Assembly (NCBI GenBank): GCA_040754395.1
Contig: JBFMCL010000021.1
Coordinates: 1-60,580 of the forward strand
Source: Nitrospirota bacterium
Lineage (GTDB): Bacteria; Nitrospirota; Thermodesulfovibrionia; Thermodesulfovibrionales; SM23-35
Length of the DNA stretch: 60,580 bases
Direction of reading: 5' to 3'
Made by a program: the position numbers and the translations under genes. This document shows, one piece after another, positions 28,710-53,302 of this stretch. Under the pieces are notes generated by a model. That model did no database searches. It was given only the letters and a program-made list of their open reading frames with translations, and had not been told where the DNA came from. Every line of letters starts with the position of its first letter. The stretch's first letter is position 1.

Positions 28710-29987
28710 TCATGGATTATAAGTATTTTCTCTGATGCTCCAATGTTTCCAGTAGGGTATCGCCTCAATAAAAAAGTTACCGTTCCTGAATCTCGTTTCA
28801 GTGTCCAGGGTGATAAGCAGAGCTTTATCGAGCTTATTTTTTTCAAGAAATTTGAAAAGAGTTTTAATGTCGCCTCTGTCTATTTTTGCCTTGATTTTGA
28901 TTTCTACAGGCAGCAGCGTCTTTTTACCGGCATAGATGATATCGATCTGCTCCTTCTGGGGAGTCTTCAGAAAGAATCGTGCATTAAGGCTGTTTACGAA
29001 ATATTGCTCTATGACCGATGACAATTCGGCCTGAGGATTCATCGCCAGGGTAAACGCCGTGTTGGAGGGATAGAGTCTCTTTATCTTCTTCTCGCTGGTA
29101 AGGAGGTTCCGTGAGTAATTGTAAAGCTTCTGCAGGAAAAGGGCATATTCCAGGTATGAAATATAGTTTGCAATCGTCCGCTGGTCAACGTTAAGGTCAT
29201 TGCCCAGGTTCTTGTAATCAAGATAAAAACCAGGCCGCGATGCAGTAAGAATTAGCAATTTCATGAGCAGTTCGGACAGGTCAAGTTTGAATGTCTGTGG
29301 AATATCCACAAAGATGACCCTCTCAAGAAGGCTTTCTTTCAGATACTTTCTGCGCACAGGCTCATCCATATCAAGAGCCTCAATAAACCCGCCGGTCTTC
29401 AGGAATACAGCCATATGCTTCTTCAGGTCCTTCTCGAATATCTTTTCCCTGTGCCTATCTATCGAAACTTCTTGAAAATCAAGGTACTCCTCAAAATCCA
29501 AAGGGCTGATCATAAAATCAAAGAACCTTCCCGCCAGGCTTTCCCTTGTGCCCTGCCACATAGTTATCTGTGCCGAGCCTGTCAGAAAGATCTTCAGTTT
29601 TGGATTTGCATCGTAGAGGAGTTTAACCTTCGATGACCATCCATTGAGTTTCTGTATCTCGTCGAGGAATATATATGCCTTCTTTTTTGAGATATCGTCT
29701 TGGAGCACCTCTGCTTCATACTGTTTGATGATATCTTCAAGGTCATACCTCATCTCATCGAATGAAAAATATAAGATAGTGTAGGGATTCGTGTGCTTTT
29801 CAATAAGCGCTTGGATAATCTGATACATGAGGGTTGTCTTTCCCACTCTTCTCACCCCGGTGAAAAGCACGATTTGTCGCTTGTCTATATGCCTTGCGAT
29901 CTCCTCGAATATTTTTCTTTTTCTTCCGGTAAGATCCGGGGATACTTCCCCTGTCTTCCACCACGGGTTAAAATCCTGTAATTCCAT
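28710..29987 (-). CDS. AAA_14/DUF4143-family ATPase
   Basis: The P-loop ATPase domain has Walker A TGVRRVGKTTL (about residues 43-53), Walker B YIFLDEIQKL (about 105) and a sensor motif IFLTGSAQIT. After a winged-helix-like stretch, a DUF4143 C-terminal half ends in a PD-(D/E)XK-like fold (EQIDIIYAGKKTLLPVEIKIKAK, about residues 345-367), with a plausible E-x-K core. This family is common in archaea and anaerobes and its role is unsettled; mobility or defence is suspected. The gene is AT-rich compared with the hydrogenase genes and lies just outside the tRNA-Leu element, so it may be an older acquisition. Confidence 0.75.
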   Translation of the reverse strand: MELQDFNPWWKTGEVSPDLTGRKRKIFEEIARHIDKRQIVLFTGVRRVGKTTLMYQIIQALIEKHTNPYTILYFSFDEMRYDLEDIIKQYEAEVLQDDISKKKAYIFLDEIQKLNGWSSKVKLLYDANPKLKIFLTGSAQITMWQGTRESLAGRFFDFMISPLDFEEYLDFQEVSIDRHREKIFEKDLKKHMAVFLKTGGFIEALDMDEPVRRKYLKESLLERVIFVDIPQTFKLDLSELLMKLLILTASRPGFYLDYKNLGNDLNVDQRTIANYISYLEYALFLQKLYNYSRNLLTSEKKIKRLYPSNTAFTLAMNPQAELSSVIEQYFVNSLNARFFLKTPQKEQIDIIYAGKKTLLPVEIKIKAKIDRGDIKTLFKFLEKNKLDKALLITLDTETRFRNGNFFIEAIPYWKHWSIRENTYNP

Positions 29988-30153: not shown

Positions 30154-30240
30154 TGGTGCCGGTGGTGGGAGTTGAACCCACACGGAGTTGCCCCCACCGG
30201 ATTTTGAGTCCGGCGCGTCTGCCAATTCCACCACACCGGC
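30154..30240 (-). tRNA. tRNA-Leu(CAA)
   Basis: The minus strand reads a full 87-base class II tRNA: acceptor GCCGGTG pairing with CACCGGC, D arm with GGCAGACGC, anticodon loop CTCAAAA (anticodon CAA, codon TTG), a long variable arm (GGTGGGGGCAACTCC), T arm GTGGGTTCAACTCCCAC, and encoded CCA. Its 5' half (30201-30240) is part of the duplicated att core, so this half came with the element and was restored exactly. Its transcription may now depend on the element, because the integrase gene lies 34 bases upstream in the same direction. Confidence 0.95.
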
Positions 30241-30241
30241 A
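30201..30241. repeat. Integrative element att site, left copy (41-bp direct repeat)
   Basis: These 41 bases recur exactly at 51572-51612. They cover the tRNA-Leu anticodon loop, D arm and 5' acceptor plus one base. Integrases of this kind often use the anticodon-loop symmetry as crossover region. The next bases outside differ on both sides, so the repeat boundaries are sharp. Confidence 0.93.
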
Positions 30242-30274
30242 ACTATTGATATTAAAGGATTTCCGGACGTTTGG

Positions 30275-31285
30275 TCAAATAGCACCTGAGCTGACTGTAG
30301 TAGAATTGTCGTAGTTTCTGTCCAGAACGTCTATGCTCGACCTCAAACTTTCAGGGTAATGATGAGCATATCTCATTGTCATGTTAATGGTCTTATGACC
30401 GAGGAGCTCCTTTATTCTGTAAAAGTCCACACCTGCCTGAACTAACCGGGTTGCAAAGGTATGGCGGAGATCGTGGAAATGGAAGTCCTTAATGCCTGCT
30501 TTTTCAAGGGTCATATCGAATGCGGCCCGAAGACTTCTTACAGAAATGGGGAAAACCTTCCCTGAGATGTTCAGAACCTTGATGCCCTTGAGGACGTCAC
30601 AAAGGGTACTTGATAGAGGGATAGACCTTTTCTCTCCATTCTTCGATTTATGGACGGTCAGCAGTTTTCGCTGAAAGTCTATATCCTGCCATTGCAGATT
30701 TAGTATCTCTCCTCTTCTCATGCCAGTATGGAGGGCTGTAACGAGCAATGATCTTAACCAATTCGGATTAGTCGCAGCAGACAAAAGTTTTTGTTCCTCA
30801 GCAAGAGATAACCAGCGGTCTCTTGCATTACTGTTACCAATGGAGAAAGACAAGTCTGCGGCGGGGTTCTCCTTAATCCACTTCCATTCGCGACGTGCAA
30901 CGTTGAACATTCGCCTTAGCAATGAAAGTTCCTGATATATGGTTGCAGGCTTAACAACCTTCAGGCGGCTCTCTCTGTAATCAGAAATCATCTCTGTAGT
31001 GATATCAGCAAGCGTGAAATGTCCAAATGCAGGCAGTAGCCTTTTGAATGTGGTTTCATCTCTTAGCCTTTGGTATTTTTGTTTGTACTTTTCTACCATA
31101 TCAGCCAGCGTTAAGGTCTTTGCCCTTTGCCCTTCAAAATAACTACCGTCAATAATCTCACTGACGATCTTTGCAAATCTTTCCTCGGCAACCCTCTTGA
31201 CACTTGTTTCAAGGCTCCTCTCAATCCGTTTTCCCCTGTATTGCTTAATCATCCAGTAGACTTTGCCTTTTTTGTAGATGCCCAT
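30275..31285 (-). CDS. int: Tyrosine recombinase (element integrase)
   Basis: A 336-aa phage-type integrase next to the att site, which catalyses insertion into tRNA-Leu. The SAM-like core-binding domain (residues about 55-145) is followed by the catalytic domain with Arg in HTGMRRGEIL, His-x-x-Arg in FHDLRHTFATRL, GH in ELLGHKT and the Tyr nucleophile in MRYAHH. All catalytic residues are present. The last codons overlap a TGTAGTA-type motif (near 30296) that also opens the repeat at the other end, likely an arm-type binding site. Confidence 0.93.
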   Translation of the reverse strand: MGIYKKGKVYWMIKQYRGKRIERSLETSVKRVAEERFAKIVSEIIDGSYFEGQRAKTLTLADMVEKYKQKYQRLRDETTFKRLLPAFGHFTLADITTEMISDYRESRLKVVKPATIYQELSLLRRMFNVARREWKWIKENPAADLSFSIGNSNARDRWLSLAEEQKLLSAATNPNWLRSLLVTALHTGMRRGEILNLQWQDIDFQRKLLTVHKSKNGEKRSIPLSSTLCDVLKGIKVLNISGKVFPISVRSLRAAFDMTLEKAGIKDFHFHDLRHTFATRLVQAGVDFYRIKELLGHKTINMTMRYAHHYPESLRSSIDVLDRNYDNSTTVSSGAI

Positions 31286-31290
31286 AAACT

Positions 31291-31563
31291 CTATCCTCCC
31301 TTCCGGGCACCGGCAACAGTTCCAGCACCCGAATTATACCTTTTTGCCGTTTCCTCTTTCCAGAACTGCAGCCAGGCATGAACTTCATCTGAATCGAAGC
31401 GAAGAAGGGCTTTCCGCCCTGTTCCAATTTTTATGGATGGGATATGTCCGAGTTCAGCCCAGCTATAAATGGTCTTCGGTGAGCAGCAGATGATTTTTGC
31501 AACCTGCTCGGCTGTGAGAAGTTTTCCAGTGGTGCGCTCCTGGGGGCGAATAGAATTATTCAA
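31291..31563 (-). CDS. Excisionase-like helix-turn-helix protein
   Basis: A 90-aa protein with a MerR-like/HTH_17 DNA-binding domain: LLTAEQVAKIICCSPKTIYSWAELG followed by the wing IPSIKIGTGRKALLRFD and the DEVHAWL tail. It sits five bases upstream of the integrase in the same direction and overlaps the preceding gene by four bases. It would direct excision or regulate int. Confidence 0.8.
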   Translation of the reverse strand: MNNSIRPQERTTGKLLTAEQVAKIICCSPKTIYSWAELGHIPSIKIGTGRKALLRFDSDEVHAWLQFWKEETAKRYNSGAGTVAGARKGG

Positions 31564-32610: not shown

Positions 32611-32793
32611 TTAGAGTAAGACTAATCTGCCTTTTTCTGTGACTTTAAGATGCCAGATAATCTCCTTACCTTTATTGTCCTTCCCTTTTATCGGGATGAG
32701 TCTCGGTCTGCTGAGATCAATGTCTATCTCGATGACATTATGATCAATTCTTAGCTTTGATGTTCTTTTATCAGTATTATCTGAGTAATTCAT
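32611..32793 (-). CDS. Small hypothetical protein, 60 aa
   Basis: ATG at 32793 begins inside the last 17 bases of the coupling-protein gene, suggesting translational coupling. The product is a basic, beta-rich protein (SKLRIDHNVIEIDIDLSRPRLI; KEIIWHLKVTEKGRLVLL) without a recognised family. It is the last gene before the terminator, so it belongs to the mobilization transcript. Confidence 0.6.
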   Translation of the reverse strand: MNYSDNTDKRTSKLRIDHNVIEIDIDLSRPRLIPIKGKDNKGKEIIWHLKVTEKGRLVLL

Positions 32794-34522
32794 CCAGTAC
32801 CAGTTCCTCTTCTGTGTCCTGTTTTTTCTCGATGGCAATCTCCGGAATGTTTCTCGGTATCATTGAATTTCTGTCGGGCTGGGTAAAGATATTCAGGGAA
32901 ATCTGAGTGACCGGATATTCCCCTATGGAGACATACCCCTTGAGGGCTTCCATTCCCTTGAGTTCTGATGGGAGTATGATCCTGCTTATCTTCTGTTGTT
33001 CGCTGAAATTATATCCGTCTCTGATGCTTCTTGCGCCTGCTGATAGTGTCCTTACCTGTTGTACGTGCTCTTGTTCCCCAAATGCCCGGCTAAGATATTC
33101 TGTTGTGTTTGGGTCATTGATCCTGAATATGACTTTTGTATTCGTCTGATTGAAAATCGAATAGGCATCAGGGCCATAGGTTTTTTTGACCTGTTCAAAG
33201 TCCTGCGCTCCAATGACGGGACAACTTCCCCTGTCCCGTCCTTCAGCCAAAAGCCGCTGAAGCGTCTCAAGTTTCATCAAAGAGGGAAATTCATCAATGA
33301 TGAACCAGAACCTGAAACTCCTGTTGATCTGTCTGGTTAAGAATTCTCTGAATGCAAGGTCAAAGAAAAGGGTATAGTATGTCTTAAAGGCTTCCTCAGT
33401 GGCGGTTCTGTTCACTATGAAAAGTCTGCCGGTACCAGTTCTGATAAATTCCTTTATCGAAAAATCGCCGTCGTGGTAGAAATGCCTTTGCACAAGGGCA
33501 TTGGAAAACTGTGAGACAACCGACATTATCGAGTTGGCGGTATTGTTATCCTTCGCTATGTACCCTTCAACCCTTGGATCGTGCTTAAGGAGGTTATAGA
33601 GCTTTTCCCTGTTGCATCCGTTCACAAAGAGGAAGTCTATAAGCGCCTTATTCGATGCCTTGCCGGTTTCCCATAAAAGAGTGAAAATCGCATGGAATAT
33701 ATCTCGTGCCGCCTGATACCAGAATGCGGCCTTGGGGTCTGGAGGGAGAGGAATCATTGAATTGACTATATTGTCGATGTCTTCCTTTTCCCCGATCTCC
33801 TGAAAGATATTCCACCTGATTGTCCTTTCATCCTTGGGATCAAGCAATAAATCCTTTCCCTGTTCAAAAAAGAGCGGGTAGAATTCGGGCTTTCGGTCAT
33901 AGATGACAGCCGGATCGCCGGTGATTTGCGGAATAAGGTGCTTCAGGAATGTTGATTTCCCGGACCCAGGAGAGCCGAAAAGAAACATGCCCATATTCTC
34001 AAAAGATATCGGGAATCTGACTCTCTCCTTCCCGAATATAATTCGGGAGTTCTTGATAGCCGAATTTATCCTTTGAGGCGATACCAATGATGCCCCTCTC
34101 AGGAACTTCTCGTCTTTCCGGGAAATGTCCTTTTTAAAGAGTATTGTTAAAACCAACCCCATGAAAAAAGCAGAAACGGCAGATGAGAACAACATATCAA
34201 AAACAGCCTTATGTTTTACTATGGCAATCCATTGATCTTTTAAAAGCTCTTCCTCCGGGTTTTCCGGGACGCCGGTAAATGTCTTATGGAATGAGTCCTT
34301 AATGAAAAGACTTGGGGGATATTGTTTCATGACAGCGCGGTAAATATAAAATCTCTGGTGTGAGAATACATTGTAAGGCTGTAACCCGTTGTCTGATCTT
34401 ATGCCTGCCCAGGTGAGACCGACAAAGGCTATGCAGGCAAGGACAAAAAACCAGATAAGAATTATCTGGGCGTGTTTCTTCAGGAACTTCAGCCTTGTTG
34501 CCAGTTCTTCGAAACTTCTCAG
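32777..34522 (-). CDS. TraD/VirD4-type coupling ATPase with a probable CTG start
   Basis: The coupling protein drives relaxase-bound DNA into a conjugation channel. Walker A is FGSPGSGKSTF, Walker B FWFIIDEFPSL, and a late conserved motif is VIGAQDFEQV. Two membrane helices are predicted, one in the extension (LIWFFVLACIAFVGLTWAG) and one at MLFSSAVSAFFMGLVLTIL. The first ATG (34330) would lose the first helix. The frame stays open upstream with no ATG, GTG or TTG, but a CTG at 34522 overlaps the relaxase TGA (CTGA) and has GGAGG seven bases before it. I therefore extend to 34522 (581 aa). No channel genes are present, so the element must borrow a host or helper transfer system. Confidence 0.8.
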   Translation of the reverse strand: MRSFEELATRLKFLKKHAQIILIWFFVLACIAFVGLTWAGIRSDNGLQPYNVFSHQRFYIYRAVMKQYPPSLFIKDSFHKTFTGVPENPEEELLKDQWIAIVKHKAVFDMLFSSAVSAFFMGLVLTILFKKDISRKDEKFLRGASLVSPQRINSAIKNSRIIFGKERVRFPISFENMGMFLFGSPGSGKSTFLKHLIPQITGDPAVIYDRKPEFYPLFFEQGKDLLLDPKDERTIRWNIFQEIGEKEDIDNIVNSMIPLPPDPKAAFWYQAARDIFHAIFTLLWETGKASNKALIDFLFVNGCNREKLYNLLKHDPRVEGYIAKDNNTANSIMSVVSQFSNALVQRHFYHDGDFSIKEFIRTGTGRLFIVNRTATEEAFKTYYTLFFDLAFREFLTRQINRSFRFWFIIDEFPSLMKLETLQRLLAEGRDRGSCPVIGAQDFEQVKKTYGPDAYSIFNQTNTKVIFRINDPNTTEYLSRAFGEQEHVQQVRTLSAGARSIRDGYNFSEQQKISRIILPSELKGMEALKGYVSIGEYPVTQISLNIFTQPDRNSMIPRNIPEIAIEKKQDTEEELVLDELLR

Positions 34523-35052
34523 GCGTGGTCCTCCAGCGGAATTTCGGAATCGATCTCAAGCTCAGAAGAGTTATCTTTCTCCATGACTTCCTCTTTACCT
34601 GTCGCAAGCTCAATAATTTGTTCCTGCTCGATTTCAAGGTCAAGCGCTTTTTCTGTTATGGATGCCAGGTCGTCTCTGTCCATCCGCAAATCTTCTTTAT
34701 CTCCCCATGCCAGAACATGAACATGTGTTCTTTCGTTGTGATCATGTATCGCATAAACATAATCAAAGCTTTTGTCTTCTTCCACCTGGTATCTCTCGAT
34801 TACGTCCCTTACCATTATTCCGATTTCTTCCTTGGACAGATCTGGTTCTTCCGGAGAAAAAATCAACCTCCGTTCCATCTCTGCCTCTTTGATTTCTTGT
34901 TTCAATTCCTTGAAAGTATCTCGCGGTAAAATATTTCCTTCTCTATCGTAGACCGGTGCATGCCCGCATCCAAAAGCCCCTTCCCGGCTGATGTAGTTGA
35001 GTGTTCCAGCGCCTTTTCCTGTGCCTTTGGAAAAACTACTCTTTACTATCAT
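34519..35052 (-). CDS. Short HUH relaxase (MobA/VirD2-like)
   Basis: The relaxase nicks oriT and leads the strand into the recipient. Near the N-terminus GTLNYISREG supplies the likely catalytic Tyr (motif I), and IHDHNERTHVHVLAWG is the His-rich metal site (motif III). At 177 aa it is only a relaxase domain with an acidic tail, lacking the C-terminal helicase or primase of longer relaxases. It overlaps the MobC-like gene upstream (17 bases) and the coupling protein downstream. Confidence 0.8.
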   Translation of the reverse strand: MIVKSSFSKGTGKGAGTLNYISREGAFGCGHAPVYDREGNILPRDTFKELKQEIKEAEMERRLIFSPEEPDLSKEEIGIMVRDVIERYQVEEDKSFDYVYAIHDHNERTHVHVLAWGDKEDLRMDRDDLASITEKALDLEIEQEQIIELATGKEEVMEKDNSSELEIDSEIPLEDHA

Positions 35053-48293: not shown

Positions 48294-49100
48294 TTAGCCC
48301 TCATAAGGTTTTGTAGTCCGGCACTTGGGATATCTTGAACAGCCCCAAAACTTTTGACCGATATTCGAGCCTTTTCCTGCGGTTCTCAGCACCATTTCAC
48401 TGCCGCATTGTGGACAAACAAGAGATGCCTTTGAGACAGGCAGCGCTGCTTTGTGATCAGGCTGAACGTTTTTAATGAATTCCAATAGTTGAGAACCTTC
48501 GACCAGATCGATGGGTTTGTTTGCTGCGAAATTCCTTGCTTCCTGAGTAAAGAAACCAGAAGTCATTAAAATTGACTTATTTGCATTTTGTGAAGTCTGA
48601 ACGCCATATAATTCTCGAACTTTGTCAACGCCGACTTTAATATTCCGCCATTGTTTGCATTGAACAAGGATCAATTCGCCGTTCTTTTTCAACGTCAAAT
48701 CGATGCCACCATCAGGACCAGCAATGGCATTTTCATATACAGTATATCCTTGTCTCCGGTAAGCTTCCCCAACCAATTCTTCAAATTCCTTCCAGTTTAA
48801 ATTACGAACAGTATCAATAGATTCCTGCCTGTCCAGGAGCTTACGCTTGCGCCAGGAATTAATTGCCGAAATGGGAGCAGGGATTAATAAAACCAGTGCA
48901 ATTATCGGAGCAAGTGAGGGCGCGGCGTTAGCCAGTCCTTTGAAAAGCATATATGTCGTGTCTGTAGGCCCCTTTTGCTGAAGTTCTATTGAGGGAATGA
49001 AGTATTTGAGAATAAGATATGAAATGCCGGATAACGCAACACTAACCCACCACGGAAAGAGAGCCAACAGGTCGAGAATTGAATCATTTTTTCTTGCCAT
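48294..49100 (-). CDS. Membrane-anchored Mrr-family restriction endonuclease with topoisomerase zinc finger
   Basis: Two N-terminal membrane helices (residues about 13-33 and 55-80) are followed by an Mrr-type PD-(D/E)XK domain: NWKEFEELVGEAYRRQGYTV, then GPDGGIDLTLKKNGELILVQCKQW with catalytic D and Q-C-K. The C-terminus carries a C4 topoisomerase-type zinc finger (CPQCGSEMVLR ... FWGCSRYPKC). Mrr proteins usually cut modified DNA; anchoring at the membrane suggests action on entering DNA (inference). It is 268 aa and lies beside the restriction-modification pair. Confidence 0.85.
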   Translation of the reverse strand: MARKNDSILDLLALFPWWVSVALSGISYLILKYFIPSIELQQKGPTDTTYMLFKGLANAAPSLAPIIALVLLIPAPISAINSWRKRKLLDRQESIDTVRNLNWKEFEELVGEAYRRQGYTVYENAIAGPDGGIDLTLKKNGELILVQCKQWRNIKVGVDKVRELYGVQTSQNANKSILMTSGFFTQEARNFAANKPIDLVEGSQLLEFIKNVQPDHKAALPVSKASLVCPQCGSEMVLRTAGKGSNIGQKFWGCSRYPKCRTTKPYEG

Positions 49101-49122
49101 TAATTTGTCTGTATTGCCGAAC

Positions 49123-49917
49123 TTAATCAGCAGAACGCAGACTGTATTTCTTTAAATCTTCAGGGGAAAGCTCTTCAGGTGGCACAAGCCTATAGTGCTT
49201 CTCTGAGACTATGACGATTCCGGCTTCGGAATCTTCCAGTTCAAAAATAGCTATGATGTTGTCCCGCATGAATTGTGCAGCAATTAACTTACATATCAGA
49301 TTAGGAAATTTTGCGAGGCAGACTGCCAAGTCCTGTTCAAATTGCACAATTCCAAGCTTGTCTGTCCCGCCTTTAGCTTGAACCGGGAGAACGTAGTGTG
49401 CTCCTCTCTTATCAATCCCGATATAAATTTCATCTGTTTCCACCTGGCCTATCTGGGGAGCTGTTGTTCTTAGGTGGTTCTGCAAAGAATAACAGGTCAG
49501 GCCGGTGAAGATATCAACTAATCGATTGTAGCGGATCTTTGCCAACAATGCCTGTTCATCGTTCAAAGCATATTTTTCTATGACTCCAGGTGTAGCGTCC
49601 GGTATCTTAATTTCAGCAAGTTTTGGATTTGGGGTAATGCTGGCAATGGCCGCCAATTCAAAGACATACTTGGCGGTTCCTGCCGGTCTGATTACCCATG
49701 ATGCATTCTCCGGAGCTTTTGCCAGAATCGATTGAGGCAAGTCTGAACGATACCGGAAAGAATAAATGAGATCGCCTATGTTTTTTGGCAGTTTTATTCC
49801 GAGTTTTTTCGCTGCCTCGATTATATCTGATCTCTGGAAAGGTACCCTTGACGCACCTTCAGAGTAATGTTTGAAAAATATTGCTTCAATAATCTGAACA
49901 TAACGGTTCTTCTTCAT
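49123..49917 (-). CDS. Putative Type II restriction endonuclease
   Basis: Paired with the adjacent DNA methyltransferase. ATG at 49917 is chosen because AGGAG lies five bases upstream; an earlier ATG at 49938 overlaps the methyltransferase. Around residues 160-185, VETDEIYIGIDKRGAHYVLPVQAKGG gives a D ... (E/Q)-A-K PD-(D/E)XK-like core. The N-terminal 60 residues look like a winged-helix or recognition domain. Cleavage specificity cannot be read. Length 264 aa, normal for this class. Confidence 0.7.
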   Translation of the reverse strand: MKKNRYVQIIEAIFFKHYSEGASRVPFQRSDIIEAAKKLGIKLPKNIGDLIYSFRYRSDLPQSILAKAPENASWVIRPAGTAKYVFELAAIASITPNPKLAEIKIPDATPGVIEKYALNDEQALLAKIRYNRLVDIFTGLTCYSLQNHLRTTAPQIGQVETDEIYIGIDKRGAHYVLPVQAKGGTDKLGIVQFEQDLAVCLAKFPNLICKLIAAQFMRDNIIAIFELEDSEAGIVIVSEKHYRLVPPEELSPEDLKKYSLRSAD

Positions 49918-49925
49918 GCAGTCTC

Positions 49926-51260
49926 CTATCCGGGCCAACGCAGGATAACAACCTCTTCTCTTAATTGAGCTGAAGTTGCAGTAGCAAATCTCGTGCGGAA
50001 CAACTCGATTTCTGCTAACTCATATCCTAATGATTGAGCGATCTCTGCTAACAGTTCACCAGTGCGAATCATCACCTTAAAATAAGAAGCCTGATCGCCT
50101 ACAACGTAAGCCAAAAGCGCACCTTTCTTTAAGACATGACGTAGATCGGCGAAATGTTTAGCCATTCCCCCGAAATACTGAACAGTAACCCGACTGTAGA
50201 GTTTCTCGAAACCGGAAGTTTTTTTCAGTTGAATTCTTTTTCTTTCGATCATTTCAGCAAGGTTCAGGACATTTTCGTTGTTTGCAACCCATTTATCGTC
50301 TTCATCGTCTTTATAGATTCCACGGGTATTTGAACGAATCAGGGTCTTTTTGAATTTTCTCAGCTCCTCCAGATTATTTATAAATCCTAATAAGACTGAT
50401 TCCAGCCTCGTTGTTCTGGTATAGTCTTTTTCATTTGGATAGGGCGGGGATGTTATCACAAAATCAACACTGTCATGGTCAAGCATTTTGCTGATTTGAC
50501 GAGAATCGCCCAGAATTGCTTTGCATGGTGGGTACGTGTTTCCTTCGATCGAGGCAACGTCTCTCGCAATTTTATCGATTTCCCCTAACCAGGAGCTAAT
50601 AACCGGATAATCCAATTTCGATTTTCCAACTCCAACCTCCGGCCCAAATTTGAGGTTGCTTATTTTAAAAACGAGCGCGTTTGCCAGAGCTAACAAGGCA
50701 TGGTTAAAGCATGGATGATCTTTGTATCGTCTTAGGGTGTTCAACAGTCTTAGTGTCTTATGCAATGGAAGGGGGCTTATTGAGTTCGTAATAAGCAGTT
50801 TTCGGGCGTGCGCGTCGAGCGTGTTCAGATTGAGTTCCGGGATATTCCCCCCAAGAGTCGGAGCGTCTGCAATGCCTTCGGATTTGAGTTCCTCGACTGC
50901 TTCAGATGCAACTTCATGCGCCATTGCTTCAAGTTCTTCTCCCTTAATGCTCCAGTCAGTCTTTACAGAGGTTGCAAAATGTGCAAACGGGTTTGCTTCA
51001 ATGCCGATTGCGGGTATTCTGTTGAGCTTCGACTCTACTACGGTCGTGCCGGTCCCGCAGAAGGGGTCAAGGATAACTTTGCTTTCATCGATATTGAATT
51101 TACGGATGTAATGCCGGACTAAATGGGGTGGGAAAGAAAGGACAAAACGATACCAGTCATGAAACATGCTGTCATTAGGGTCAAGCTTGTTCTTCTTTCC
51201 GTTCTTAAGCTTAGTATCGTCAGGTACTTTTATTCCAGGGATTTCAATTTGTAATTGCAA
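49926..51260 (-). CDS. DNA methyltransferase of the Type II-like system
   Basis: The SAM-binding motif DPFCGTGTTVVESKL (about residue 60) precedes the catalytic motif ITSPPYPNEKDYTRT (about 265). This is the alpha-like or TRM11-like order, and SPPY is usual for N4-cytosine or N6-adenine enzymes. Length 444 aa. Its stop lies just past the endonuclease start, so the modification enzyme is made first, as protective systems require. Promoter sequence is probably in the AT-rich 51261-51340 stretch. Confidence 0.85.
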   Translation of the reverse strand: MQLQIEIPGIKVPDDTKLKNGKKNKLDPNDSMFHDWYRFVLSFPPHLVRHYIRKFNIDESKVILDPFCGTGTTVVESKLNRIPAIGIEANPFAHFATSVKTDWSIKGEELEAMAHEVASEAVEELKSEGIADAPTLGGNIPELNLNTLDAHARKLLITNSISPLPLHKTLRLLNTLRRYKDHPCFNHALLALANALVFKISNLKFGPEVGVGKSKLDYPVISSWLGEIDKIARDVASIEGNTYPPCKAILGDSRQISKMLDHDSVDFVITSPPYPNEKDYTRTTRLESVLLGFINNLEELRKFKKTLIRSNTRGIYKDDEDDKWVANNENVLNLAEMIERKRIQLKKTSGFEKLYSRVTVQYFGGMAKHFADLRHVLKKGALLAYVVGDQASYFKVMIRTGELLAEIAQSLGYELAEIELFRTRFATATSAQLREEVVILRWPG

Positions 51261-51418: not shown

Positions 51419-51423
51419 TCTTA

Positions 51424-51546
51424 CTGTAGTAAAATTGTAGTAGTTTTATGCGTTTTATGCAGATTTGACGGCAATAGCCGGAATATATAGAAATGCTTTT
51501 TCTGCTTACTAATCAAAGTGTTACGCTGAAACCATTGCCAGTAGCC
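51424..51546. repeat. 123-bp terminal repeat, copy 2
   Basis: This is the partner of 8363-8485 (five substitutions, no gaps). Its opening motif CTGTAGTAAAATTGTAGTAG also resembles CTGTAGTAGAATTGTCGTAG at 30296-30315 in the integrase 3' end. This suggests the integrase binds related arm sites at both ends of the element. Confidence 0.85.
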
Positions 51547-51571: not shown

Positions 51572-51612
51572 ATTTTGAGTCCGGCGCGTCTGCCAATTCC
51601 ACCACACCGGCA
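51572..51612. repeat. Integrative element att site, right copy (41-bp direct repeat)
   Basis: An exact copy of 30201-30241. It is the displaced original 5' half of tRNA-Leu(CAA) and lacks the variable arm, T arm and CCA, so it is not a gene. It fixes the element's right boundary. Confidence 0.93.
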
Positions 51613-51665: not shown

Positions 51666-51869
51666 CTACTTTTTCTGCGTGCGAATGAAATGTGCGATTG
51701 AACGGTCATAGGTGCGTTCAGCTTCTTTCGTAAAGAAGCACGCGGGAAGTTCGCCGTTCCTCCTGTGATAGTGAAGGCATTCACAGCATTTGCTTTTCCT
51801 CTCGCACGGCTCATACGTGCATGTGCAGAATTTCCTGAATTTTTCCTGAATGCATTCCATGACTTTCAA
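51666..51869 (-). CDS. DUF6485-like small cysteine-rich protein
   Basis: A 67-aa protein with cysteines spaced [21 protein letters not shown], then ELPACFF and a tail [12 protein letters not shown]. This is the pattern of the small DUF6485 family of anaerobes. It probably binds a metal, perhaps zinc or an Fe-S cluster, through the His/Cys set; no function is established. It is 38 bases downstream of mnmE on the same strand. It was the neighbour of tRNA-Leu before the element inserted. Confidence 0.75.
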
Positions 51870-51907
51870 TTGTACATTTTACATTTTGTTTTTTGCAACG
51901 AAAAGGG

Positions 51908-53302
51908 CTATTTGCCGATACAGAATTCGCTGAATATCCTGTCCAGTATATCCTCTGTTGTGATTGCTCCGACGACGGTGCCGAGATTGTCCAGGGCCGT
52001 CCTGAGCTCAAGGGCATGTATCTCAAGGGGCTGATTTTCCGTCAAGGTCTGTGCTGCCCTGCCGAGAGATGCGACTGCTTGTTCTATCGCCGTTTTATGT
52101 CTGAGATTTGTGACCACGACACCCTCCCTTTCCTCTTTCCAGTCACTCAGACAGGTGGTGAAGATTGCGTCTTTCAGTTCCTCGAGACCGTCTCCCCTTG
52201 TGGCAGAAACATCCAGCGCACGGGGAGCGGTAGCGATGAGTCGTGAAATGAGAAAATTCATGTCAGCCAATGAAGGAAGGTCGCACTTATTGAAGACGAT
52301 GATCGTGCGCTTTGGCTTTATCTTTTCAATCACCTCAATATCTTCATCAGTAAGGGGTTCACTCCGGTCAAAGACAGCGATTACAAGATCAGCGTTCTCG
52401 ATGCTCTGCAGGCTCCTTTTCACTCCTTCCTGTTCGGCGGTCTCCCTGACTTCCCTGATTCCTGCCGTATCCATGATCCTCAGGGGAAGTCCGTTGATAT
52501 TCAGATATTCCTCGATTATGTCACGCGTTGTGCCGGGGGTGTCTGTAACAATCGCCCGGTCTTTCCTGAGCAGTGCATTCAGGAGAGAAGATTTTCCGAC
52601 ATTGGGCCTTCCGATAATCGCCGTTGAAAGCCCTTCCCTGAAAAAGCGGGCTTCATCGTATGTCTTCAGCAGCTTCTCGAGTTCATCGCGGATTATGCAT
52701 ATTTCCCTGAGCAGGTCCTGTGCTGCTGCGGTTTCGATCTCATCCTCGGGGAAATCGATACAGGCTTCGACTTGGACGCATATCTCCGTCAGCCGGTCCC
52801 TCAGTCCGGTTATCTTTTCAGAAAGGCCTCCCTGCAACTGCTCAACGGCGATCCTTCTGCTTTCGTCTGTTTTTGCCCGGATGAGATCGAGCACTGCCTC
52901 TGCCTGGCTCAGATCTATCCTGCCGTTTATGAAGGCCCTTTTCGTAAACTCCCCGGGTTCTGCAAGCCGCACCCCCTGTTTCAGGACAAGGTCAAGGGTT
53001 TTCCGGACAGTGATCATGCCACCGTGGCAGTTTATCTCGACCACATCCTCTTTTGTATAGGAATGCGGGGATTTCATGACAGTCACCAGTACTTCATCCA
53101 CCTTTTCGCCGGTGAACGGGTCTCTGATGTGACCGTAGACCATGCTGTACGGTTTCACACTGCCGAGAGTGCAATTTTTTGGCGAGGAGAAGAGTTTCTC
53201 CGCAGTCCGGACCGAATGTTTTCCGCTCAGCCTCACGATGCCGATGCCTCCTTCGCCGAGCGGTGTGGAGATTGCTGCTATGGTATCTTCAGGTGAGCGC
53301 AT
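51908..53302 (-). CDS. mnmE: tRNA modification GTPase MnmE
   Basis: MnmE with MnmG installs the cmnm5/nm5 group on U34 of several tRNAs. The N-terminal tetrahydrofolate-binding domain starts DTIAAISTPLGEGGIGIVRLSG. The G domain has G1 GRPNVGKSSL (about residue 224), switch DTPGTTRD, G3 DTAG and G4 NKCD. The C-terminal FCIGK with the conserved Cys is intact. Length 464 aa, as expected. It lies downstream of yidC in the classical ribosome-protein/YidC cluster. Confidence 0.97.
   Translation of the reverse strand: MRSPEDTIAAISTPLGEGGIGIVRLSGKHSVRTAEKLFSSPKNCTLGSVKPYSMVYGHIRDPFTGEKVDEVLVTVMKSPHSYTKEDVVEINCHGGMITVRKTLDLVLKQGVRLAEPGEFTKRAFINGRIDLSQAEAVLDLIRAKTDESRRIAVEQLQGGLSEKITGLRDRLTEICVQVEACIDFPEDEIETAAAQDLLREICIIRDELEKLLKTYDEARFFREGLSTAIIGRPNVGKSSLLNALLRKDRAIVTDTPGTTRDIIEEYLNINGLPLRIMDTAGIREVRETAEQEGVKRSLQSIENADLVIAVFDRSEPLTDEDIEVIEKIKPKRTIIVFNKCDLPSLADMNFLISRLIATAPRALDVSATRGDGLEELKDAIFTTCLSDWKEEREGVVVTNLRHKTAIEQAVASLGRAAQTLTENQPLEIHALELRTALDNLGTVVGAITTEDILDRIFSEFCIGK

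Follow-up and report, generated by a model that had tools for sequence, protein, structure and literature searches.

The window, that is, the whole 60,580-nt stretch analyzed here, is contig C21 of a Nitrospirota genome that we call G000 (other G numbers denote related genomes). It contains a 21.4-kb, putatively mobilizable element bounded by 41-nt direct repeats, whose main open reading frames lie on the minus strand and whose tyrosine integrase gene (int) stands ahead of tRNA-Leu(CAA), the sole tRNA gene found in the window by ARAGORN. The features used below are as follows.

30154..30240, minus strand: tRNA-Leu(CAA), intact, re-created at the int-proximal end of the element (ARAGORN)
30201..30241, minus strand: int-end copy of the att core, covering tRNA positions -1 to 40 (direct repeat)
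30249..30278, minus strand: predicted sigma70 promoter for tRNA-Leu(CAA), TTGACC-18-TAATAT (promoter scan, 9/12 bases)
30275..31285, minus strand: tyrosine integrase, 336 aa (Pfam Phage_integrase, 4.5e-37)
30291..30317, minus strand: putative Int arm-type site (presumed role) in the 3' end of int (27-nt repeat)
31291..31563, minus strand: excisionase-like HTH_17 protein (Pfam; PHROG 66)
32777..34330, minus strand: TrwB/TraD-like coupling protein of the element (Pfam, 1.6e-83)
34519..35052, minus strand: weak match to a MobL-type relaxase (Pfam, 8.6e-4, under the gathering score)
49123..49938, minus strand: type II restriction enzyme (PADLOC REase_II, 2.3e-117)
49926..51260, minus strand: type II methyltransferase, first gene of the element counted from its far end (Pfam; PADLOC MTase_II, 1.8e-36)
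51420..51446, minus strand: putative Int arm-type site (presumed role), far end (27-nt repeat)
51572..51612, minus strand: att core copy at the mnmE end, the displaced original tRNA 5' half (repeat and the sites of relatives)
51869..51898, minus strand: TTGCAA-18-TACAAT just after mnmE, a candidate for the native promoter that stayed behind (promoter scan)
51908..53302, minus strand: mnmE, the host gene that precedes the tRNA where the site is empty (Pfam; synteny)

The two copies of the 41-nt repeat are 100% identical and lie 21,371 nt apart, and the repeat corresponds to tRNA positions -1 to 40, reaching just past the anticodon loop, which bears out the statement of an earlier note on this DNA that the att core extends from the anticodon loop to the 5' end. 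Nucleotides 1-40 of the tRNA lie in the core, on the element side, and nt 41-87 are host DNA. The int reading frame is whole, outside the core and not split by integration; it ends at 30275, leaving the 34 nt between stop codon and tRNA that the note had counted. A tyrosine integrase adjoining an intact tRNA, with a displaced 5' tDNA fragment (51572-51612) in the same orientation and upstream of it, is the arrangement of a 5'-fragment (SIT) type element in a tRNA gene, and the uninterrupted empty site that also marks this type is found in 10 relatives. There, tRNA-Leu(CAA) sits ~100-490 nt behind mnmE and is matched from nt 1 to 84 or 87; the copies behind mnmE in G008 and G007 are 100% identical to the window's over nt 1-87. 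In G002 the gene behind mnmE is matched in two pieces, and in G000, G009, and G017 only nt 1-40 are found there, at 100% identity. Because the empty sites are whole and the occupied sites keep nt 1-40 only, the 5' half of the window's tRNA and all sequence upstream of it are element DNA, as had been proposed, and the old upstream region is indeed some 21 kb away, at the displaced half. Since the displaced end in G009 matches the window's over 193 nt at 97% identity, the core included, a near relative of the element appears to occupy the tRNA-Leu(CAA) site of that genome, which belongs to another genus. The far-end arm site lies within this match (G009 contig C62).

The 2 putative arm sites are 89% identical over 27 nt, and BLAST of both arms gives E=7e-6 over 24 nt. 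Among the mobilization genes, in a search that covered part of the element's open reading frames, the coupling-protein match is strong and the relaxase match weak and below the cut-off. The cargo comprises branched-chain amino-acid ABC transporter genes, type II restriction-modification, and an Mrr-type nuclease; methyltransferase, restriction enzyme, and nuclease together (48294-51260) form the far end, directly behind the displaced tRNA half. Downstream of the tRNA, at 28710-29987, lies an AAA_14/DUF4143 ATPase gene that matches the candidate defence family PDC-S01. A scan of IMG/VR with the window's integrase returned 9 loci, the best of which by E-value is 38% identical over residues 77-322, with one 56-residue stretch reaching 48%.

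A small open reading frame resembling the window's lies in 6 of 13 mnmE-tRNA intervals (G000, G005, G004, G017, G018, and G007), and the window's, the only one of the 6 searched, matches DUF6485 (Pfam, 1e-8). Five of 12 relatives (G016, G008, G004, G009, and G018) have, at the corresponding position, hexamers like those of the candidate native promoter just after mnmE, none of them significant alone. Near the tRNA, only 1 of the 13 native intervals has a sigma70 site with p<0.05; this is the empty site of G018, with a different sequence of its own, TTTAAA-18-TATATT (p=0.02), and the window's own native interval gives p=0.34. We infer that the native-site tRNA is cotranscribed with mnmE. The displaced native upstream region now points, at the far end, into the restriction-modification genes of the element.

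At the int end the picture is different in that a fitting site lies close by. The predicted -35 hexamer TTGACC (30278-30273) overlaps the TGA stop codon of int; after an 18-nt spacer follows the -10 hexamer TAATAT (30254-30249), and the tRNA starts 8 nt further on. The promoter scan found 7 promoter-like sites in 1.5 kb versus 2.2 in shuffles, and the site at 30278-30249 is not the top-scoring one; as a prediction it is singled out by position and not by score. The best register before the window's tRNA, TTGACC-16-TTTAAT, has p=0.003 against shuffles. All promoter p values in this work rest on sigma70 hexamer frequencies that are E. coli based. Since the predicted promoter shares bases with the int stop codon and reaches to within 8 nt of the tRNA, read-through from int would not be needed, and the tRNA is very likely transcribed from the element's own promoter, independently of int. 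The earlier note had left the choice between an element promoter and read-through from int, and had held that an int-independent promoter mapped within 30241-30275 would tell against dependence on int; the first of its options is favored by the site predicted in silico at 30278-30249, and the dependence on int is not.

Integrase loci were chosen by similarity to the window's integrase, giving 159. Twenty have int and then the tRNA on the same strand, 87 have the tRNA on the opposite strand, and 52 have no tRNA near the stop codon; 2 further loci (L188 and L192) had the int-then-tRNA layout at first and were dropped from the geometry table by the filters. For most of the 107 loci with a tRNA, the geometry is read from the layout, without a displaced half as confirmation. 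In the proximal test, which asks for a sigma70 site whose end lies 3-15 nt upstream of the tRNA, with p<0.05 versus shuffles, 11/20 int-then-tRNA loci pass versus 1/87 of opposite geometry, many of the latter being near copies (Mann-Whitney, 2e-8). When extended -10 sites are allowed, the counts are 11/20 versus 2/87, and in a wider window 13/20 versus 5/87. As a yardstick, 16 of the 43 distinct tRNA genes of G000 pass, the window's included. Passes are complete in the Leu/SeC group (6/6) and the Ala/Val group (3/3). The 9 failures comprise 3 of 4 loci of the Omnitrophota Pro/Arg group (1/4 passes), 4 of 5 of the Arg/Thr/Gly group (1/5 passes), L194, and L090. In the Arg/Thr/Gly group extended -10 sites lie farther from the tRNA, and L322, L324, and L335 pass the wide test, with L325 at p=0.06; L172 fails it. 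At L183 both hexamers are inside the int reading frame, which runs into the tRNA, and at L164 and L182 the -35 is inside it.

On a tree made by a quick method from 96 of the 107 tRNA-associated integrase loci (those without the N-terminal part being excluded), the 18 int-then-tRNA rows, 2 of them long (L183 and L247), need 4 changes, and the starred branches force 4; the direction of change was not inferred. Hence, the 20 loci are not 20 independent cases. The int-then-tRNA geometry is found in four separate groups of this tree; a fitting promoter is predicted in three, and in the fourth at one locus out of 4. Eight other int-then-tRNA loci were searched for displaced 5' halves, and 4 have one of ~40 nt that ends a few nt past the anticodon (G025 Leu-UAA, G071 Arg-CCG, G076 Arg-CCT, and G112 Arg-ACG). 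The insertions in G076 and G112, proven by the displaced half, have no significant proximal promoter. In the stretches fetched, no displaced half was found for G093, G057, and G331, and for G025 Leu(UAG) 23 nt only. G000 itself carries a second integrase of the same family, ~50% identical, in the opposite and usual geometry at tRNA-Arg(CCT) (L020; C17:71910-73072), and G017 has a near copy of this locus.

The sequence of the predicted promoter is not peculiar to the element. In G000 the layout TTTGACC...TAAAATCA is found, besides the window's tRNA, only at Leu(UAA) and Leu(UAG) among the 43 distinct tRNA genes; the former has no int found within 1.5 kb, and the latter has a broken int. Of 149 genomes of the order, 118 contain the block AAATCCTTTAAAATCA (<=1 mismatch), with a backward control giving 0 or 1 match per strand and genome. 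The tRNAs that it precedes at the examined loci are Leu(UAG), Leu(UAA), Leu(CAA), Arg(ACG), Thr(UGU), and SeC; a tRNA lies directly downstream at 14 of the 30 loci returned and none behind at the other 16. Of the 47 tRNA genes listed with this promoter type at <=3 mismatches, 34 show no sign of int within 200 nt, a single weak trace being left uncounted. We rejected the idea that elements invented the block and that past insertions left it behind, given the many copies without int across the order; these copies before tRNAs without int point instead to a host tRNA promoter type that elements carry. The element in the window thus brings a copy of this putative host promoter type to a gene that, in the empty relatives, is without the block. 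A Leu-clade integrase ahead of tRNA-SeC (L267, on contig C20 of G331), whose reading frame overlaps the first 12 nt of the tRNA, has the same promoter block.

Both hexamers are kept where int is broken at Leu(UAG) of G000 (contig C30), G017, and G025; Leu(UAA) of G017 has the same broken-int look near a contig end, and Leu(UAG) of G014 has a broken int and a weaker promoter. This set leans towards kept promoters, because the DNA query behind it contained the promoter. In G011 the promoter block is present, with 95% identity to the window over 130 nt including the tRNA, and no int was found in the 20 kb fetched. The downstream side of the tRNA is collinear between G011 and G018, which belong to the same genus, and the upstream side in G011 is unlike the mnmE side of G018, an empty site without the block.

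The best joint explanation, to which we give a probability of about 0.8, is that a tyrosine-integrase element at tRNA-Leu(CAA) supplies the 5' half of the gene together with its own sigma70-type tRNA promoter, carried in the attachment arm. As the empty and occupied sites show, an element with mobilization-type genes has recombined within the tRNA's anticodon loop region, in the rare orientation that places the 5' half on the element. The sequence of its attachment arm holds, between the int stop codon and that half, a sigma70-type promoter of the lineage's tRNA type, presumably active. Insertion would turn a tRNA located behind mnmE (with a DUF6485-like reading frame between them in some relatives) into a stand-alone gene, which would fire from the element promoter 8 nt upstream and stay expressed whether int is on or off.

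Read-through from the integrase promoter could instead be the main source of the tRNA, cut out by RNase P, as proposed for archaeal pTN3-type elements. The 34-nt gap and the absence of any listed terminator-like site on the minus strand between int stop and tRNA are in its favor, and because of that absence read-through may add to transcription; as the main source we consider it unlikely, since a fitting promoter stands at tRNA distance, this promoter is kept at several loci with int broken or not found, and such sites are rare in the opposite geometry. The block has the putative arm site (30291-30317) on one side and the core (30201-30241) on the other, a position that would also suit a sequence kept for recombination through binding of Int, Xis, or a host factor, with its likeness to a promoter secondary. 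That reading is very improbable: in other families of the order the same block precedes Leu, Arg, Thr, and SeC tRNAs that have no integrase, and other groups of the integrase family have different promoter sequences at the same place.

A separate proposal is that the element holds its host by owning the only tRNA for TTG; the earlier note had suggested that loss or regulation of the element would be costly. The search for a second tRNA-Leu(CAA) gene that the note had called for found none: among the 43 Rfam tRNA matches of G000 over the cut-off, each typed by ARAGORN, there is 1 CAA gene, in an assembly that is not fully complete, because tRNA-Phe, Ile(GAT), and Ala(UGC) are absent among the typed genes, probably through a gap around the rRNA genes, although the stated completeness is 99.96%. 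The Leu UAA, UAG, CAG, and GAG genes are each single copy. The CAA gene is single as far as found, but it is probably not the sole reader of TTG, as tRNA-Leu(UAA) is present and should read this codon by wobble. Moreover, precise excision would reunite the native 5' half with its original upstream region, some decayed relatives have kept the promoter without a working int, and TTG accounts for 47 of 755 Leu codons in 16 hand-picked reading frames outside the element. The cost-of-loss argument is weak given the restored upstream region and the probable reading of TTG by Leu(UAA), and we find the proposal scarcely credible. In 11 element reading frames the TTG share is 70/392, and it is, if anything, the element that needs tRNA-Leu(CAA) more. 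The use of TTG for Leu is ~3-fold higher in the element's reading frames (30275-51260) than in those counted outside it.

Insertions that displace a 5' tRNA fragment are a known class. Islander lists 159 such islands among 3,919 (PMC4383910), with the intact tRNA at one end and the displaced 5' fragment at the other, as here, and with an anticodon-centred crossover among its classes; the word "promoter" is absent from its main text, whereas here the source of the promoter is identified and compared across a family. Same-strand pairs with the integrase before the tRNA, the SIT shape, make up together with OD pairs <8% of 1,273 integrase-tRNA pairs (PMC2951348), a study whose available sections treat regulation of the integrase and not the source of tRNA transcription. 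There is an archaeal parallel: the att site of pTN3/TKV elements, 41 bp long, is located at the 5' half of a tRNA-Leu gene, and these elements part the tRNA from its original promoter (PMC5495485, PMC8371274), but int is split by integration there and its promoter is reported to serve the tRNA, whereas in the window int is whole and a predicted dedicated promoter overlaps its stop codon. According to PMC8371274, recombinant bacterial tRNAs keep their original promoter with very few exceptions, and the use of an integrase promoter by tRNAs of the archaeal pTN3 type is seldom met in bacteria; for the rare bacterial cases it cites Williams 2002. Islands associated with dusA likewise replace the 5' end of their target gene, with putative -35/-10 sites before and after integration, but the target is a protein gene and not a tRNA (PMC4482086). 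ICEKp1 also re-pairs promoters and genes by integration at a tRNA gene, in the reverse direction, the host tRNA promoter driving int (PMC13023037). In tRNA-dependent lysogeny the element must provide the tRNA function, from a promoter strong by reporter assay, but there the tRNA gene is brought in whole by a phage and the host's own copy is broken, whereas here one gene is rebuilt (PMC10865867); the window element carries no separate whole tRNA of the same isotype, the window having one tRNA. Among titles and the beginnings of abstracts, no published account of a dedicated element-borne promoter for a rebuilt bacterial host tRNA was found. Insertion into tRNA genes with a 5' fragment is a known rare class, and the probable carriage of a dedicated promoter is a new form of it. 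It offers an answer to how a tRNA remains expressed after an insertion on its 5' side severs the promoter: the element seems to bring a tRNA-grade promoter within its attachment arm, in a layout that recurs in separate groups of one integrase family. If this is true, mobile elements are a source of promoter change for core RNA genes. Because the predicted promoter lies between the putative arm site and the core, a much-used promoter would sit where the integrase acts, and transcription and recombination could compete there.

A broader proposal is doubtful, though possible: the attachment site would be a portable cassette of promoter and tRNA 5' half, across several Nitrospirota lineages, host tRNA promoters would have been permanently replaced by successive insertions and decays, and once the element is excised as a circle the promoter would drive its far-end genes. 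The genes that it would meet there are restriction-modification genes in the window and small gene pairs, toxin-antitoxin-like by eye, in G025 and G071. A rule that far-end genes are always co-oriented with the tRNA promoter in the circle was rejected, as it holds in 3 of 5 cases (the window, G025, and G071, but not G076 and G112). Loci with more than one apparent layer were also seen. At L143 (G014 C58:13188-13301) and L146 (G013 C29:25036-25097), a promoter and a 40-nt tRNA-Leu 5' half stand cut off, apparently by a second insertion, that is, by layered insertions at one tRNA gene. At L350 (G071 C93), just upstream of the displaced half, a reading frame resembling, by eye, an integrase C-terminus stops immediately in front of the half, which suggests an older insertion at the same tRNA-Arg(CCG).
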